IMG/VR virus record: IMGVR_UViG_3300030329_001987
Span: 1-29,171 of that record
DNA: 29,171 nt
Origin: a virus
Reading direction: 5' to 3' (one strand)
Shown one piece after another: positions 16,937 through 25,067 of the stretch; position 1 is the stretch's first letter, and every line of letters starts with the position of its first letter. Position numbers and translations under genes: made by a program. The notes beneath the pieces are model-generated. The model was not told the origin of the DNA. It saw only the letters and a list, made by a program, of their open reading frames with translations, and searched no databases.

Positions 16937-18463
16937 GTGCCTTCTTATACACATCTTGCATATAGACGTAATGCGAAGGCGGCTGCACGTAATCAGCAAA
17001 TAAAGAAACCTAAAAATTTAGAAGATTTAAAAAAGGCAAGAGATGATTTTGGTTATTTTTGTGATTATGTAGCTGATAAACCTCCTGCTTATCATCATCA
17101 AGAATGGAATAGAAAATTTGTTACTAATGAAGATAGTAGCTGTTTAATAAAAATTGCTGGACCAAATATAGATCTATTAGCCCCCCGTGGTTCTGCTAAA
17201 TCAACTGTTCTTGGTTTATTAACTGCATGGGCTATTGGTATTCATACACAAGCTGGTCTTCCATTACAAGTTCTTTACCTCTCATATACCGTTGATATTG
17301 CTCGATCTAAATCAGCAACGATTAAACGTATTATTGAAAGTAAAAGATACCAAGAAGTATTTCCTAAAGTACGTCTACTTAAAAACGTTACAAGTAATGA
17401 GTACTGGTCAATTGATCATAAATTTGCAGGTATAGATACCACTGGTGAAGAACAATTTACTTTATGTGCTGCTGGACTAAAAGGTTCTGTGACTTCTAAG
17501 CGTTCTCATCTCGTGATGATAGATGATGCTATCAAATCAGCTGCTGACATTTCTAATCCTGATATTCGTAAAACAATGCAAGAAAATTGGAATGCAGTTA
17601 TTGCTCCAACTATGTTTGAAGGGGGTCGGGCTATTTGTCTTGGTACTCGGTTTAGACATGATGATATTCATTCCACTACCTTTAACGAACAAAATAATTG
17701 GACACAAATTGTCCTTTCTGCAATACAAAATGATCCTAAAACAGGTGAAGAAAAATCATATTGGCCTGAAATGTGGTCCCTGGAATATTTAAAAGAAAAA
17801 AAACGGCAATCTCCGATTGCCTTCTCTTTCCAGTATATGAATCAAGTCGTTCGCCAGAATGAATTATCGCTTGCACCTGAATTGATTGTCAAAGCAGAAA
17901 TAGCAACTGAATTTGATACGTTAGGAGTGGGGGTAGACCTGTCAGCAGGAATAAGAGAAAAGAATGATTATACGGTAATGGTATTGGGGGGAAGAATCGA
18001 AGATCGAATTCATATCATTGATTACAGACGCATACGAGTTATGGGTAATTTAGAAAAACTTGATGCATTAAAAGAACTGTTAAATGATTGGTCGATATTA
18101 GGAATGGATCAAAATGGTTTATATTATCCAACGCATTCTACATGTGATATATGGTCTGAAGCTGTACAATACCAAGCATCATTAGAAGCAGATTTTAAAC
18201 GTATTTGTTTAAATCAAGAAAGCTTATATAATTTATTATGGCATCCAGTTAAAGGTTTTAGAGGAGACAAATTAGCTAGATTCCGTGGAATTATGGGTAT
18301 GTTTGAAGATAGAAAAATTATATTTAACCGCTATAGAAACTTTACAAATATGTTTGAAGAATTAACTAACTTTGGTGTTAGTGGACATGATGATTGTGTT
18401 GATGCATTAGTTTGGTTAGTAACTGGATTAATGAAGAAAGGTTCGCTACAATTAGATTTCTGA
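16937..18463 (+). CDS. terL: Terminase large subunit (DNA-packaging motor ATPase/nuclease, 508 aa)
   Basis: This is the motor that pumps DNA into the capsid and cuts the concatemer. Residues 79-90 (DLLAPRGSAKST) form a Walker A motif with Lys88. Residues of about 192-198 (LVMIDDA) form Walker B with Asp196-Asp197. The C-terminal RNase H-like nuclease shows VGVDLSAGIREKNDY (Asp334) and GHDDCVDALVWL (Asp485, Asp486, Asp489). The length, 508, suits the family. Translation starts at GTG 16937, with no obvious Shine-Dalgarno sequence. A putative small subunit lies upstream and the portal downstream. Confidence 0.93.
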   Translation: MPSYTHLAYRRNAKAAARNQQIKKPKNLEDLKKARDDFGYFCDYVADKPPAYHHQEWNRKFVTNEDSSCLIKIAGPNIDLLAPRGSAKSTVLGLLTAWAIGIHTQAGLPLQVLYLSYTVDIARSKSATIKRIIESKRYQEVFPKVRLLKNVTSNEYWSIDHKFAGIDTTGEEQFTLCAAGLKGSVTSKRSHLVMIDDAIKSAADISNPDIRKTMQENWNAVIAPTMFEGGRAICLGTRFRHDDIHSTTFNEQNNWTQIVLSAIQNDPKTGEEKSYWPEMWSLEYLKEKKRQSPIAFSFQYMNQVVRQNELSLAPELIVKAEIATEFDTLGVGVDLSAGIREKNDYTVMVLGGRIEDRIHIIDYRRIRVMGNLEKLDALKELLNDWSILGMDQNGLYYPTHSTCDIWSEAVQYQASLEADFKRICLNQESLYNLLWHPVKGFRGDKLARFRGIMGMFEDRKIIFNRYRNFTNMFEELTNFGVSGHDDCVDALVWLVTGLMKKGSLQLDF

Positions 18464-19538: not shown

Positions 19539-19685
19539 ATGAAACTTAAAAAGCTGGTCAAACAAGCAATAAAGAAACCGAAGCTTTTTACTAAAGAAGA
19601 GCTACTCTATTTTAAGAGATGGCTATATCTTAGGAAACAAACCAAAGCTGCTAAAATCATTAAAAGGAAAGAGGAAAAAGACTAA
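19539..19685 (+). CDS. Small basic protein before the portal (48 aa)
   Basis: A 48-residue, strongly basic helical protein (MKLKKLVKQAIKKPKLFTKE; LLYFKRWLYLRKQTKAAKII). The TAA overlaps the portal ATG (TAATG), and AAAGAGGAAAAAG before the portal start lies within it. Coupling to the portal supports it as a real gene. It may bind nucleic acid or act in head assembly. Function unknown. Confidence 0.6.
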   Translation: MKLKKLVKQAIKKPKLFTKEELLYFKRWLYLRKQTKAAKIIKRKEEKD

Positions 19686-22030
19686 TGGCTACTGACGCTA
19701 AAGCCCGTCTTAAAGAAATAATTGACTCTTATCTTGAAAGAGATGGAGGAACTGGAATTGATACTGGAATTGTAGCTTCTCATTTAGCTCAAATGAGGCT
19801 TTTTGGTATTCGTCAAGGAGTTGAATTTTTTCCTGCTCAAGATAACTTTGGTAATCAAAGAAAAGATTTTATAGATCGAGTAATTAAATATAATCAGCTT
19901 GAGTCTCGATTAGACTCAATTTGGGATTACTATCTATGTGATGGGCAAGGATTGTTTTATATTCGTCCTACAAATACAAATTATCGTTTATATTTTTTCC
20001 GTAAACATGAATATAGAACTTATTACAATTTAGATGGAGAATTAGATGAAGTAGTAATTATCTATAGTTATAAAGTTAAAAAAGGTCTAGGTGGAGAACA
20101 ACCTATAGCAGATGCTTCTTTAACAGGACAAGACCCAACTCAAAAACAAGGTAGAAAACGATATATAAGACTTTCAATTAAAAGGAAAGAAATTACAGAA
20201 ACACATGCAGAACATGAAATAACTTTTGATGCTCCTTATCCTTCTGCTCCAGGTAAAACTAAAGAACTTAAAAATACATTAGGTTTTATTCCTTGTGTAG
20301 AAATTTTTAATAACCCAAAAGGCTTTTCACACGAGGGTTCTGGAGAGTTTGATGCTTTAGCAAATCATATTTGTACGCATGATGAAATGATGCAAACCAT
20401 GAGAAAGAATGTCACTTTCTTTGGTAATCCAACATTACTTTCCTCTAGACCAAAAACAGATCTTGTTGAATCAGGTGGAGAAGCTAGTGTGCAGCGTCCA
20501 TCAATTGCAGCCAACTCAGGTTTTGTTGGATTAGGACCCTTAAGTTCTTCTCGTTATAAATCTGATCCCGTTTCCCGTGGTGTTGATGGACAAATAAGAG
20601 TACCGAGAGTTATAGCAAATTTAGAACCTAATGATCGTGTGGGATACATCGTTCCTGATGCGATTACTGGAGATCAAAATTCTTTCTCTAGACAGTATCG
20701 AGAAGAGATTCGTACTGCTTTAGGTGGTGTTGATGAACTCTCAATTTCAGCAGGAGTAACAGCTACAGAATATAAATCATTATTTGGACGTGTTGCAGCT
20801 ACATCTAAAAAGAAAGCAAAAGCTATTTATGACTTTGGTTTATCTCGTTGTTTAGAGTTAATTATTTTCCAAGAAGAAAATATGTTTAAAGAGAGTTTAG
20901 CTGCTGCTGCAGGATTAGAAAAACCTCTTGAATTACCTGATAATGCTAGTGAAGAAGATACAGCTTTATATGAAGAAGCGAAAGGAATGTATGATACTCA
21001 ATTAAAACAAATTATAAAAGCTTGTTTACATACACAACAGATACCACCAGGGGTTACAGGATTAATTCCTGATGGAGATGTCACTATTCAGTGGCGATGG
21101 ATGGGACCAGTCTATGAGGACTCAACTCAAGATACTTTGAACAACTCAATTGTTGTAAGAAATTTACAAGAATTAGGGGTAGATAGCATAGAAGCACTGA
21201 AATATCTCTTTCCGTCCAAGACGGATGAAGAAAGAGCAGCAATGCTTTCGGGTTTCCCATTCAGGATGGTGAACGAATTACAGAGTGCATACTCTCAATT
21301 CGCAAAGTTAGTGGGGGGAATGATGCAGACTCCTCACCCACAATCACCCGACTTACCTATGGCAGCAGATCCCCGTCTCGATCTGACACCATATCTGTAT
21401 CGAACATTAGAGGCACTTCAAAAGGAGATGAGTTATGCAGGACGCTACCGTCCAATCGACCCCACCGACGAGCCAAGCACCAGCAGCCGTCGCTCCGAAC
21501 AGCTACGTGGCGGCAGCTCCAGCAGCTCCACAGGCGGTTCAGGCAGCACCAACACCGTATCAAGTGGGTACCAGCTTCCCACAGGCGGTACCTCAGGCAG
21601 CCCCCAGCTACCAATCAAGCCCTACTCAATACGCCCCCCAATCCCCGACGACCTCGGAGCCGCAGTCGAATCCTTGGGAATCGGCGTTCAACAAGGTAGT
21701 AGGAGTACTGAGCGCACCAGTGCAATCCCCGTTCCAGGGTCAACAATCGCAGACAGCGACACCACAGTATACCCAGGCAAACTACGGACAACCCAGTCCC
21801 CAAGCTATGCCTCAATCGGCTCCGCAGATCTCGCCTCCCAGCCAGATCTCATCGCCCAACTCTTCCCAAACATCATCGAATCTCTCCTCGCAGGAGCTAG
21901 ATCAGATTCAGGCAGTGGTAGGGATGAGCAACGAAAGCCGTCAAGTGATGGACGCATTCGGGATCGAGGCTCCAGCAGTACTAAACCAGTACGCAGTAAA
22001 CCTCGAAGGGATGCTAGACAACGCAGTTGA
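19685..22030 (+). CDS. Portal protein with long overprinted C-terminal extension (781 aa)
   Basis: The dodecameric head-tail connector through which DNA enters. Identity rests on size, position between terminase and scaffold/MCP, and portal-like composition: VEFFPAQDNFGNQRKDFIDR, LESRLDSIWDYYLCDGQGLF and a clip/wing-type region with many aromatic residues. The first 581 codons are a usual portal length. The last 200 residues (Ser/Gly/Arg-rich, such as GGSSSSSTGGSGSTN and KPVRSKPRRDARQRS) are encoded by the same bases as the scaffold start. The frame has no stop before 22030, so this tail must be made whenever the portal is translated to the end. Confidence 0.8.
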   Translation: MATDAKARLKEIIDSYLERDGGTGIDTGIVASHLAQMRLFGIRQGVEFFPAQDNFGNQRKDFIDRVIKYNQLESRLDSIWDYYLCDGQGLFYIRPTNTNYRLYFFRKHEYRTYYNLDGELDEVVIIYSYKVKKGLGGEQPIADASLTGQDPTQKQGRKRYIRLSIKRKEITETHAEHEITFDAPYPSAPGKTKELKNTLGFIPCVEIFNNPKGFSHEGSGEFDALANHICTHDEMMQTMRKNVTFFGNPTLLSSRPKTDLVESGGEASVQRPSIAANSGFVGLGPLSSSRYKSDPVSRGVDGQIRVPRVIANLEPNDRVGYIVPDAITGDQNSFSRQYREEIRTALGGVDELSISAGVTATEYKSLFGRVAATSKKKAKAIYDFGLSRCLELIIFQEENMFKESLAAAAGLEKPLELPDNASEEDTALYEEAKGMYDTQLKQIIKACLHTQQIPPGVTGLIPDGDVTIQWRWMGPVYEDSTQDTLNNSIVVRNLQELGVDSIEALKYLFPSKTDEERAAMLSGFPFRMVNELQSAYSQFAKLVGGMMQTPHPQSPDLPMAADPRLDLTPYLYRTLEALQKEMSYAGRYRPIDPTDEPSTSSRRSEQLRGGSSSSSTGGSGSTNTVSSGYQLPTGGTSGSPQLPIKPYSIRPPIPDDLGAAVESLGIGVQQGSRSTERTSAIPVPGSTIADSDTTVYPGKLRTTQSPSYASIGSADLASQPDLIAQLFPNIIESLLAGARSDSGSGRDEQRKPSSDGRIRDRGSSSTKPVRSKPRRDARQRS
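21435..22030 (+). other. 596-base dual-coding overlap (portal and scaffold)
   Basis: The same strand is open in two frames (+1 apart) for 596 bases. G and C, especially at third positions, are much commoner here than in neighbouring genes. The change begins near 21170-21300, before the overlap, and ends abruptly at about 22030, the portal stop. Either dual coding has shaped the composition, or a GC-rich segment was acquired by recombination. Confidence 0.7.
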
Positions 22031-22433
22031 ATGGGGTAATAAAGCAGCAGATACTATAAAAGGATATGCAAAGTTTTCTGTAAATGAGCATCAAGAGAAT
22101 TTAGCTTATAACGAAATTCTTACAAACCCTGATGTTCTTAGTGATTACACATTGAAGTTCTTCGGTCCAGAAGGTCCTCATCCTGTGTATGAAAACGAGC
22201 AACAATTAGAGACAAGAGGATACCCAACAGCACCTGCTACTCAAGGTGCAAATGCGTTGGCACAGCCTGGTCAAAATTTCCCAGCACCTCCTGCAGCTGC
22301 TCCACCACAACAGCCAGAAAATTTCTGGGGAAGTTTTAATGAGCAAATGGCTCGTGACCCTCAGAATGCTTGGAAAGTATTAAACCAAGCACAGCCACAA
22401 ACAGTACAAAATAAATTGTTTGTAATGGAGTAA
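21435..22433 (+). CDS. Probable capsid scaffold protein, starting inside the portal gene (332 aa)
   Basis: A 332-residue protein just before the MCP, as expected for a scaffold. The ATG at 21435 has AAAGGAG (21421-21427) seven bases upstream. Residues 1-150 are Pro/Ala/Gln/Ser-rich (APAAVAPNSYVAAAPAAPQA) and overlap the portal. Residues 150-250 are helical (SSQELDQIQAVVGMSNESRQ; YAVNLEGMLDNAVEWGNKAA). The end is again Pro/Ala/Gln-rich (FPAPPAAAPPQQPENFWG) and lies outside the overlap. Matching composition of both ends supports the early start; Met164 (21924) is the main alternative and would leave a 107-base overlap. Confidence 0.72.
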   Translation: MQDATVQSTPPTSQAPAAVAPNSYVAAAPAAPQAVQAAPTPYQVGTSFPQAVPQAAPSYQSSPTQYAPQSPTTSEPQSNPWESAFNKVVGVLSAPVQSPFQGQQSQTATPQYTQANYGQPSPQAMPQSAPQISPPSQISSPNSSQTSSNLSSQELDQIQAVVGMSNESRQVMDAFGIEAPAVLNQYAVNLEGMLDNAVEWGNKAADTIKGYAKFSVNEHQENLAYNEILTNPDVLSDYTLKFFGPEGPHPVYENEQQLETRGYPTAPATQGANALAQPGQNFPAPPAAAPPQQPENFWGSFNEQMARDPQNAWKVLNQAQPQTVQNKLFVME

Positions 22434-22587: not shown

Positions 22588-23742
22588 GTGTTTATTGATA
22601 ATGATTTCCCCAAAATTTTAGGGGCCGAGCTTTACAGACCTCATCCTGGTTATATCGCAGAGATGGCAGTCGAACCAGTAGTGGTACACGACTTCACTCG
22701 CCAGCCTGGACAAACTGTTCAGCTAGATCGTTACAAGTTCTGGGGTGCTCCTGGTACAAAGGACAGCCGTGAGCGTGTAGCTGATCAAACTATTGGTACT
22801 GCTAATAGCCGTAATATCACAAAGGAAAAGGTACTTGTTGTACTTAAAGAGTACACAGGTCCTGCAGATCCTGGTGATACTACTCAAGCAAGTACTTTTA
22901 AAATTGCAAGAGAAACTCTTGTAACAGCTCAACGTCTACTACTTGACACAGGGAACCTTAATATGTTCCATCAGTCAATAGGTAGTTTGACCCTTTTGGA
23001 TGACTACAGACGTTGGAGAGACAGAGTATTCATTGATGAACTAGCTAAAGCAGAAGCCAATGGTGCTGCTTCTACTAGCCAAGGTGGATATTATTTCGCA
23101 GATGGAAAGACTAAGGATGCTTCTGGACGTATTTCTTATTCTGCTACTGAAATTACAAATACTAAGCAACAATTCTCAGTTAAAACTGACTTGCTAAGTG
23201 TTGTTAAGGATTTACGTAAGCGTAACGTTCCTACATATGCAGACGGTCTATATCGTTGCATTTGTGATCCAACATTCATGATGCACTTACGTCGTGACTC
23301 TGACTTCAGAGAAATCGCACGTTATGCAGGTGCTCCTGGACAAGGCATGTATATGGGCAACCCTATGGTTCCTAACAATGCAAGCTTCTATCAAGGACCT
23401 CAAGCTGGACAAGCTTTCTTCCTTGCTGGTGAGCCTGTAATGCCAACAGGTGTACAGTTTGAAGGTGTCAAGTTCTTCGAGTCTACAAACTTCCCAACTA
23501 AGAGTATCACTTCCTCCTATAACGCTGGTGGTGCATATGCTTCAAGAGAAGTTGCTCAAGGATACTTCTTCGGACCTCAAGCAATTGGTGTTGGAATTGG
23601 TGGACCTAATGCACAAGTTCTTATTAATAATAATGATGACTTTAGCAGATTTATAATACTGATTTGGCAGTTGTACGCTGGGTTTGAGATCCTTAATAAA
23701 GATTTCGTAACTACAGGATTTAGCTTCGTTCCTGACGCTTAA
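22588..23742 (+). CDS. Major capsid protein (384 aa)
   Basis: Main shell protein of the head. It is called from its position after the scaffold, length (384), strong GGAGGT Shine-Dalgarno sequence and codon use biased to TTC, TAC, CGT and AAG compared with neighbours, as expected for the most abundant phage protein. The sequence has a short N-arm (FIDNDFPKILGAELYRPHPG), an extended-loop region (VQLDRYKFWGAPGTKDSRER), long helices (LLSVVKDLRKRNVPTYADGL) and RCICDPTFMMHLRRDSDFRE, a typical capsid 'SP..M..L....F' segment. Translation begins at GTG. HK97 fold is inferred. Confidence 0.83.
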   Translation: MFIDNDFPKILGAELYRPHPGYIAEMAVEPVVVHDFTRQPGQTVQLDRYKFWGAPGTKDSRERVADQTIGTANSRNITKEKVLVVLKEYTGPADPGDTTQASTFKIARETLVTAQRLLLDTGNLNMFHQSIGSLTLLDDYRRWRDRVFIDELAKAEANGAASTSQGGYYFADGKTKDASGRISYSATEITNTKQQFSVKTDLLSVVKDLRKRNVPTYADGLYRCICDPTFMMHLRRDSDFREIARYAGAPGQGMYMGNPMVPNNASFYQGPQAGQAFFLAGEPVMPTGVQFEGVKFFESTNFPTKSITSSYNAGGAYASREVAQGYFFGPQAIGVGIGGPNAQVLINNNDDFSRFIILIWQLYAGFEILNKDFVTTGFSFVPDA

Positions 23743-24650: not shown

Positions 24651-25067
24651 ATGACAACTCTTTTTAAACATAAGAAAACGGGTGCAAGAGTTAAAGTTAT
24701 AAGTGAATTAGACAATGGCGACTGTTTTATGGTAGAAGACCAGGACAGTCGCATTTTTTATGCACAAAAAAATGAATTAGAAACTGATCCTGAAGGAACT
24801 AAGAAAGTAAAAACATTACAAATAAAAGATAAGGCTGCTAAAGAGGAACCTCGTGATTTTCCTCCTGATATGAGATTAAATATTAATGGAGCTACAGCAC
24901 AAATGATTGCTGATCATATTAAAGGAATTGGTCTTAAAACTGCTCGTGAAATTAAAGATCTTCAAATGTCATTATCAGGTGAAAAGTTTGCAAATTTAGA
25001 ACAATTAAGACAAATAAAAAGAGTTGATTGGGATTCTGTTATTGCAGCTGATTTGATAAGAGTATAA
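24651..25067 (+). CDS. Helix-hairpin-helix protein (138 aa)
   Basis: A 138-residue protein. The first 45 residues are a small beta domain (FKHKKTGARVKVISELDNGD). After a charged linker, residues 76-135 form a ComEA-type helix-hairpin-helix: LNINGATAQMIADHIKGIGL, KTAREI, then FANLEQLRQIKRVDWD. GIGxKTA is the DNA-phosphate-binding hairpin. HhH domains bind DNA without sequence preference. In the head/connector region it may contact packaged DNA ends or act as an adaptor. The hairpin upstream implies low or regulated translation. Confidence 0.72.
   Translation: MTTLFKHKKTGARVKVISELDNGDCFMVEDQDSRIFYAQKNELETDPEGTKKVKTLQIKDKAAKEEPRDFPPDMRLNINGATAQMIADHIKGIGLKTAREIKDLQMSLSGEKFANLEQLRQIKRVDWDSVIAADLIRV

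Follow-up and report, generated by a model that had tools for sequence, protein, structure and literature searches.

Portal gene and putative scaffold gene of S-EIV1-like cyanophages share about 200 codons read in two frames

The window analyzed here, a 29-kb viral record taken at its full length of 29,171 nucleotides, contains a portal gene whose last 596 bases also form, one frame over, the beginning of a second gene. We consider it very likely that this is a true dual-coding overlap, in which the stretch encodes both the tail of the portal protein and part of an inner head protein, most likely the scaffold, made from its own start. Comparison of homologous loci indicates that purifying selection acts on both proteins across the overlap. 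Judged by its sequence the fragment belongs to an S-EIV1-like cyanophage, with Synechococcus phage S-EIV1 as the closest isolated relative (77% identity over the portal core), and its gene order runs from the terminase large subunit through small ORFs to the portal gene, the overlapping ORF and the major capsid gene. The features concerned are as follows.

16937..18463, plus strand: terminase large subunit gene, upstream of the portal gene (508 aa; phrog_38, E 4.1e-75, and Pfam Terminase_6C)
19685..22030, plus strand: portal gene, 781 aa (ORF; core residues 1–583, overlapped tail residues 584–781)
21421..21437, plus strand: ribosome-binding site AAAGGAG and inner ATG of the putative scaffold gene (AAAAGGAGATGAGTTATG, invariant)
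21429..21431, plus strand: scaffold-frame TGA two codons ahead of the ATG (from the sequence; within the invariant motif; bars frameshift entry from upstream)
21435..22433, plus strand: putative scaffold gene, 332 aa (ORF; 58-sequence alignment; between portal and major capsid genes; residues 1–198 overlap the portal gene, residues 199–332 are single-coded)
21435..22030, plus strand: very probably dual-coded region, 596 nt (purifying selection in both frames with two fake-frame controls, synonymous profiles, composition)
21669..21701, plus strand: conserved scaffold-frame block NPWESAFNKVV, scaffold residues 79–89 (PWESAFNKV invariant in 58 sequences)
21800..21889, plus strand: conserved portal-frame block PSYxxIGSADLxSQPxxxAQLFPN and the following helix, portal residues 706–735 (portal alignment)
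22588..23742, plus strand: major capsid protein gene, downstream (phrog_1357 major head protein, E 2.1e-17)

Beyond the major capsid region, positions 24651–25067 encode a 138-aa protein whose faint similarity to helix-hairpin-helix domains falls short of the cut-off (Pfam HHH_3, E 5e-4).

Geometry and conservation of the overlap

The ORFs confirm the original prediction that two frames stay open over 596 bases, with a Shine-Dalgarno sequence at 21421–21427 and an inner ATG at 21435. The prediction had put this start at portal codon 581, which is wrong, as the A of the ATG is the middle base of portal codon 584 (TAT), three codons further. The inner frame is shifted by +1 from the portal frame, 7 nt separate the GGAG of AAAGGAG from the ATG, and the portal frame closes with the TGA at 22028–22030. 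The shared stretch carries 198 portal residues together with residues 1–198 of the putative scaffold (hereafter scaffold), about 60% of its 332 residues.

Homologous loci were sampled by three viral-contig scans from different members, one bacterial-genome scan and a phage collection, giving 234 loci with a portal homologue, some of which are repeat fetches of one contig; the viral-contig scans list the best 80 matches. Both frames are open in every one of the 112 distinct loci that hold both genes in full, where the overlap measures 536–638 bases, and AAAAGGAGATGAGTTATG is identical in all 233 loci reaching the site. The synonymous choices around the start (Q579 CAA, K580 AAG, E581 GAG, S583 AGT and Y584 TAT) are invariant in 122 loci, and among comparable codons further upstream the number of invariant ones is 0 of 121. 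A pattern search of viral contigs for a TAT to TAC change, which would keep the peptide and abolish the ATG, gave no match, and the pattern for a GAG to GAA variant of the ribosome-binding site matched 80 loci listed, with no portal relatives among them. A portal stop near codon 581, which had been named as grounds for rejecting the overlap, occurs in 0 of the 112 complete loci. The portal frame is shortened in one contig only (retrieved as both L107 and L293), where a TAG at codon 644 lies 9 bases from the contig end and the scaffold frame is normal; an assembly end is the simplest reading of this TAG, and a real truncation of the portal is possible. The end of the portal gene is labile, with eight stop positions among 112 loci, and the scaffold start is fixed.

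It is clear that the openness of both frames lies far beyond chance. Random redraws of the scaffold codons, weighted by the codon usage of these genes, give a portal frame that averages 8.7 stops and is open in none of 5,800 draws; when the portal-tail codons are redrawn, the scaffold frame averages 3.0 stops and is open in 6% of cases (none for the window itself). Of the 1,925 sites at which T would introduce a portal stop codon, 0 have T, with 639 expected. The overlap also differs in composition, with a GC content of 60.6% (sd 2.0) vs. a portal core ranging from 34 to 49%.

Conservation is also seen upstream of the inner start. Over 21155–21434 (portal codons 491–583) silent divergence falls sharply, from about 0.45 to 0.17, and codons 497–505 are almost fixed. 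A third overlapping frame can be dismissed here, since the other frames all carry stops in most loci, and so can RNA structure, given a mean z of −1.8 for the bases leading up to the start codon, compared with −0.9 to −1.8 in control windows. The search for a promoter, terminator or Rfam element found none above chance; recombination or a DNA or RNA site is a possible cause.

Selection in the two frames and alternative readings

Synonymous-site variability in both frames over 21435–22030, the check that had been proposed, bears out the overlap, as silent divergence in the portal frame, about 0.45 over the core, is about 0.09 across much of the overlap, and that in the scaffold frame drops from about 0.4 outside to about 0.17 inside. 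To separate the frames we ran a four-class substitution analysis on 50 disjoint pairs, drawn from 104 distinct loci. The rate of change is 0.38 where a site is silent in both frames; sites silent only in the scaffold frame change at 0.15, giving an omega of 0.41 (0.30–0.58) for the portal tail, and sites silent only in the portal frame change at 0.085, giving an omega of 0.23 (0.16–0.32) for the scaffold N-terminus, where the intervals come from resampled codon columns rather than lineages and are therefore somewhat narrow. The same code applied to the portal frame extended past its stop returns an omega of 0.96 (0.74–1.56), and applied to the scaffold frame extended upstream into the portal core, 0.81 (0.73–0.93), which reveals a slight bias towards values under 1 that stays well clear of the observed omegas. 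Scaffold-synonymous changes that create a portal stop have a rate of 0.009 in the overlap vs. 0.388 in the control. Counts at fourfold sites, made pair by pair and independent of the column resampling, give 0.132 in the overlap vs. 0.280 outside for the scaffold (47 of 50 pairs) and 0.058 vs. 0.363 for the portal (50 of 50 pairs).

Taken together, the two open frames, the omegas below those of the controls and the avoidance of stops argue that both the portal tail and the scaffold N-terminus are very probably made and that both are selected. The claim that the portal tail must also be made thus fares well, as an omega of 0.41 points to a tail that is very probably made and used, while the proposed counter-case of a scaffold frame free of selection before 21924 does not hold, with strong purifying selection indicated there by the omega of 0.23.

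The selective load is uneven along the overlap, and the conserved blocks in each frame sit where the other frame is relaxed. The scaffold-nonsynonymous rate is 0.011 in the PWESAFNKV region, and around scaffold residues 121–140 the constraint is reversed, with a portal-nonsynonymous rate of 0.073 vs. a scaffold-nonsynonymous rate of 0.243. As measured by these rates, the main load of the two frames falls on different stretches. The earlier description of both chains as low-complexity is largely apt, but each also holds well-conserved blocks.

Several readings in which the stretch serves only one protein, or none, were weighed against dual coding. If the scaffold frame alone mattered, the portal tail would be read by default after loss of a stop and its sequence would be free, which suits both the labile portal end point, with its eight stop positions among 112 loci, and the finding that the portal frame is the less constrained of the two. 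The four-class analysis contradicts this, since even the upper bound of the portal omega (0.58) stands well apart from the 0.96 obtained past the stop, and portal residues 706–735 are strongly conserved exactly where the scaffold frame is relaxed, so we regard a free tail as very unlikely. The converse, that the overlap is translated in the portal frame alone, with scaffold synthesis beginning at 21924 or near residue 193, follows the GenBank annotation of S-EIV1 with its 133-aa product AHV82225, but it is contradicted by the scaffold-frame omega, by the invariant Shine-Dalgarno sequence and ATG and by the conserved block at residues 79–89, and we give it next to no credence.

The extreme conservation around the inner start might instead reflect a programmed frameshift that fuses portal to scaffold, in place of or besides separate initiation. 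However, any upstream +1 shift would end at the invariant scaffold-frame TGA two codons before the ATG, a −1 shift leads into the third frame, and the strong ribosome-binding site makes a shift unnecessary; such a fusion is highly improbable. A nucleotide-level signal, be it RNA structure or a DNA site, would account for synonymous conservation that extends to about 280 bases ahead of the overlap, in a stretch lacking any open third frame. For the overlap itself this is contradicted by the stop avoidance and class-by-class pattern, which track the codon structure of both frames, and in addition predicted folding up to the start codon is no different from control windows and no Rfam family matches, which leaves this explanation barely tenable.

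Identity, synthesis and origin of the two products

The upstream gene product is identified as a tailed-phage portal protein from family matches, the top structural matches and gene position. Residues 1–735 match phrog_20475 (head and packaging, E 1.5e-282), 41 of 57 family members match the phrog_64 portal (best E 4.8e-4), and the top Foldseek matches of the portal model are portals (E 2.6e-4, on a low-confidence model), with the gene flanked by those for the terminase large subunit and the major capsid protein. The structure prediction for the full portal (mean pLDDT 39) is too poor for detail. Its tail, in which Gly, Ser, Pro and Arg abound, is predicted to be mostly disordered, with one possible helix near residues 716–738.

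Scaffold genes usually lie between the portal and major capsid genes, and scaffolds are poorly conserved in sequence. The inner gene ends at 22433, ahead of the major capsid gene from 22588, and encodes an acidic, Ala/Pro/Gln-rich chain whose model (mean pLDDT 50) has a predicted disordered N-terminus and predicted helices at 179–230 and 297–325. We label it a putative scaffold on the strength of its place before the major capsid gene, this composition and the predicted C-terminal helices, and from sequence and model together the capsid scaffold is most likely the second product. The original assignment as scaffold is thus plausible in gene place, acidity and predicted helices but finds no family match: comparison with PHROGs, Pfam and PDB gave no significant match and no known scaffold family, and a structure search with the model returned nothing. 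The absence of a scaffold family match and the low confidence of the model would also suit a 332-aa product that is real and overlapping yet is another head protein, e.g., a minor capsid or head-completion protein. We hold this to be possible though unlikely, given a gene place typical of scaffolds, a C-terminal half predicted to be helical and the acidity of the protein overall.

With the inner product taken as the scaffold, ribosomes reading the portal gene to 22030 would add the 198-residue Ser/Gly/Pro/Arg-rich C-terminal tail, and second ribosomes would start at the ATG at 21435 through the strong AAAAGGAG site, one frame over, and make the N-terminal 60% of a partly helical head protein of 332 residues. 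The inner gene's own start is read from its sequence as the invariant AAAAGGAG, the 7-nt spacer and the ATG. Since portal-reading ribosomes would run through the inner start while others are recruited there, the two products would be coupled on one message, and the nested start may thereby couple the amounts of portal and scaffold. In known portals the C-terminus faces the prohead interior; if it does so here, the tails would sit in the scaffold core. The net charge is +5.5 for the portal tail, about +8 for its last 40 residues, and −7.6 and −9.1 for the scaffold parts, and these opposite charges, calculated from sequence, fit a tail that points into the prohead with its basic end in contact with the acidic scaffold. 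A bolder proposal, which we regard as rather doubtful, is that the tail is a de novo domain which arose when the scaffold gene was read through in another frame, and that it binds the very protein it overlaps; a single stretch of DNA would then specify both partners in the prohead core as well as the proportion in which they are made.

Which frame is older is not separated by codon usage, as both are about equally atypical, and composition fits either order, since a shift of one base turns Ala/Pro/Gln codons into Ser/Gly/Arg codons. With moderate confidence we favor the portal tail as the newcomer, since the portal end is labile and the scaffold start fixed, the predicted scaffold helix 179–230 runs across the portal's stop, and the solved portal chains among the matches are mostly 390–565 residues long, with no room for such a tail. 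The overlap would then date from the loss of the portal stop codon, which let translation of the portal continue into a scaffold gene already present. An outgroup without the overlap was not found in the phage collection, the bacterial genome contigs (whose one match carries the overlap) or the best 80 matches listed from each of the three viral-contig scans.

S-EIV1 annotation and comparison with known systems

Long out-of-frame overlaps of two large morphogenesis genes are unexpected in tailed phages whose genomes are not short of space (79 kb in S-EIV1), and this one is fixed across a large, widespread cyanophage lineage represented by hundreds of environmental contigs. In marine viromes, 3.3% of the cyanophage content belonged to the group holding S-EIV1 (PMC5332604). 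The depth of the alignment permits selection to be measured in both frames, and the overlap offers a testable case of a structural protein gaining a new domain by overprinting.

S-EIV1 (KJ410740), the only isolate found, has the same gene order and inner start and a 77% identical portal core, with a portal ORF of 767 aa and an inner frame of 325 aa. It differs in being annotated without the overlap, as portal AHV82224 and a stub, AHV82225, that keeps only the last 133 of the 325 scaffold residues, which illustrates how some 60% of a head protein is lost in standard annotation. The S-EIV1 major capsid gene (L001 15248–16474, corresponding to KJ410740 60784–62010) is annotated as two hypothetical proteins, one of them on the opposite strand; the homologue lies at L001 15323–16459 on the plus strand with 83% identity. 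The S-EIV1 terminase large subunit (L001 8544–11084, 847 aa) has an insert of about 330 residues (about 201–530) that the window's terminase (508 aa) lacks; it starts with Cys, ends with HNFIANGFNVLN before a Cys, and looks like an intein.

In lambda, the scaffold gene Nu3 starts within the upstream head gene C in the same frame, and thus Nu3 shares C sequence. The nested scaffold start is common to both arrangements, but the present one lies in the portal gene and is read in a frame other than that of its host gene. Functional phage genes also overlap out of frame on one strand in lambda Rz/Rz1 and in the microvirus phiX174; Rz1 is a short lysis protein and phiX174 has a tiny ssDNA genome, whereas the partial overlap described here, about 198 codons long, joins two large head genes in a tailed phage. 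An HNH endonuclease hidden in a phage methylase insertion (PMC11855218) is likewise an out-of-frame ORF within a tailed-phage gene, but it is a mobile inserted element rather than a lineage-fixed overlap of two structural genes. A search of the open-access literature found no report of an overlapping portal/scaffold pair. Overprinted viral gene pairs (PMC8227390) also draw two proteins from one sequence with the load split along the overlap, and the portal/scaffold split resembles the segregated overlapping helices of HIV-1 (PMC9119678), again two proteins from one sequence; these cases come mostly from viruses of eukaryotes, and no portal/scaffold pair was found among them. We judge the overprinted gene pair to be of a known kind, and its place in the portal and scaffold genes to be unusual.
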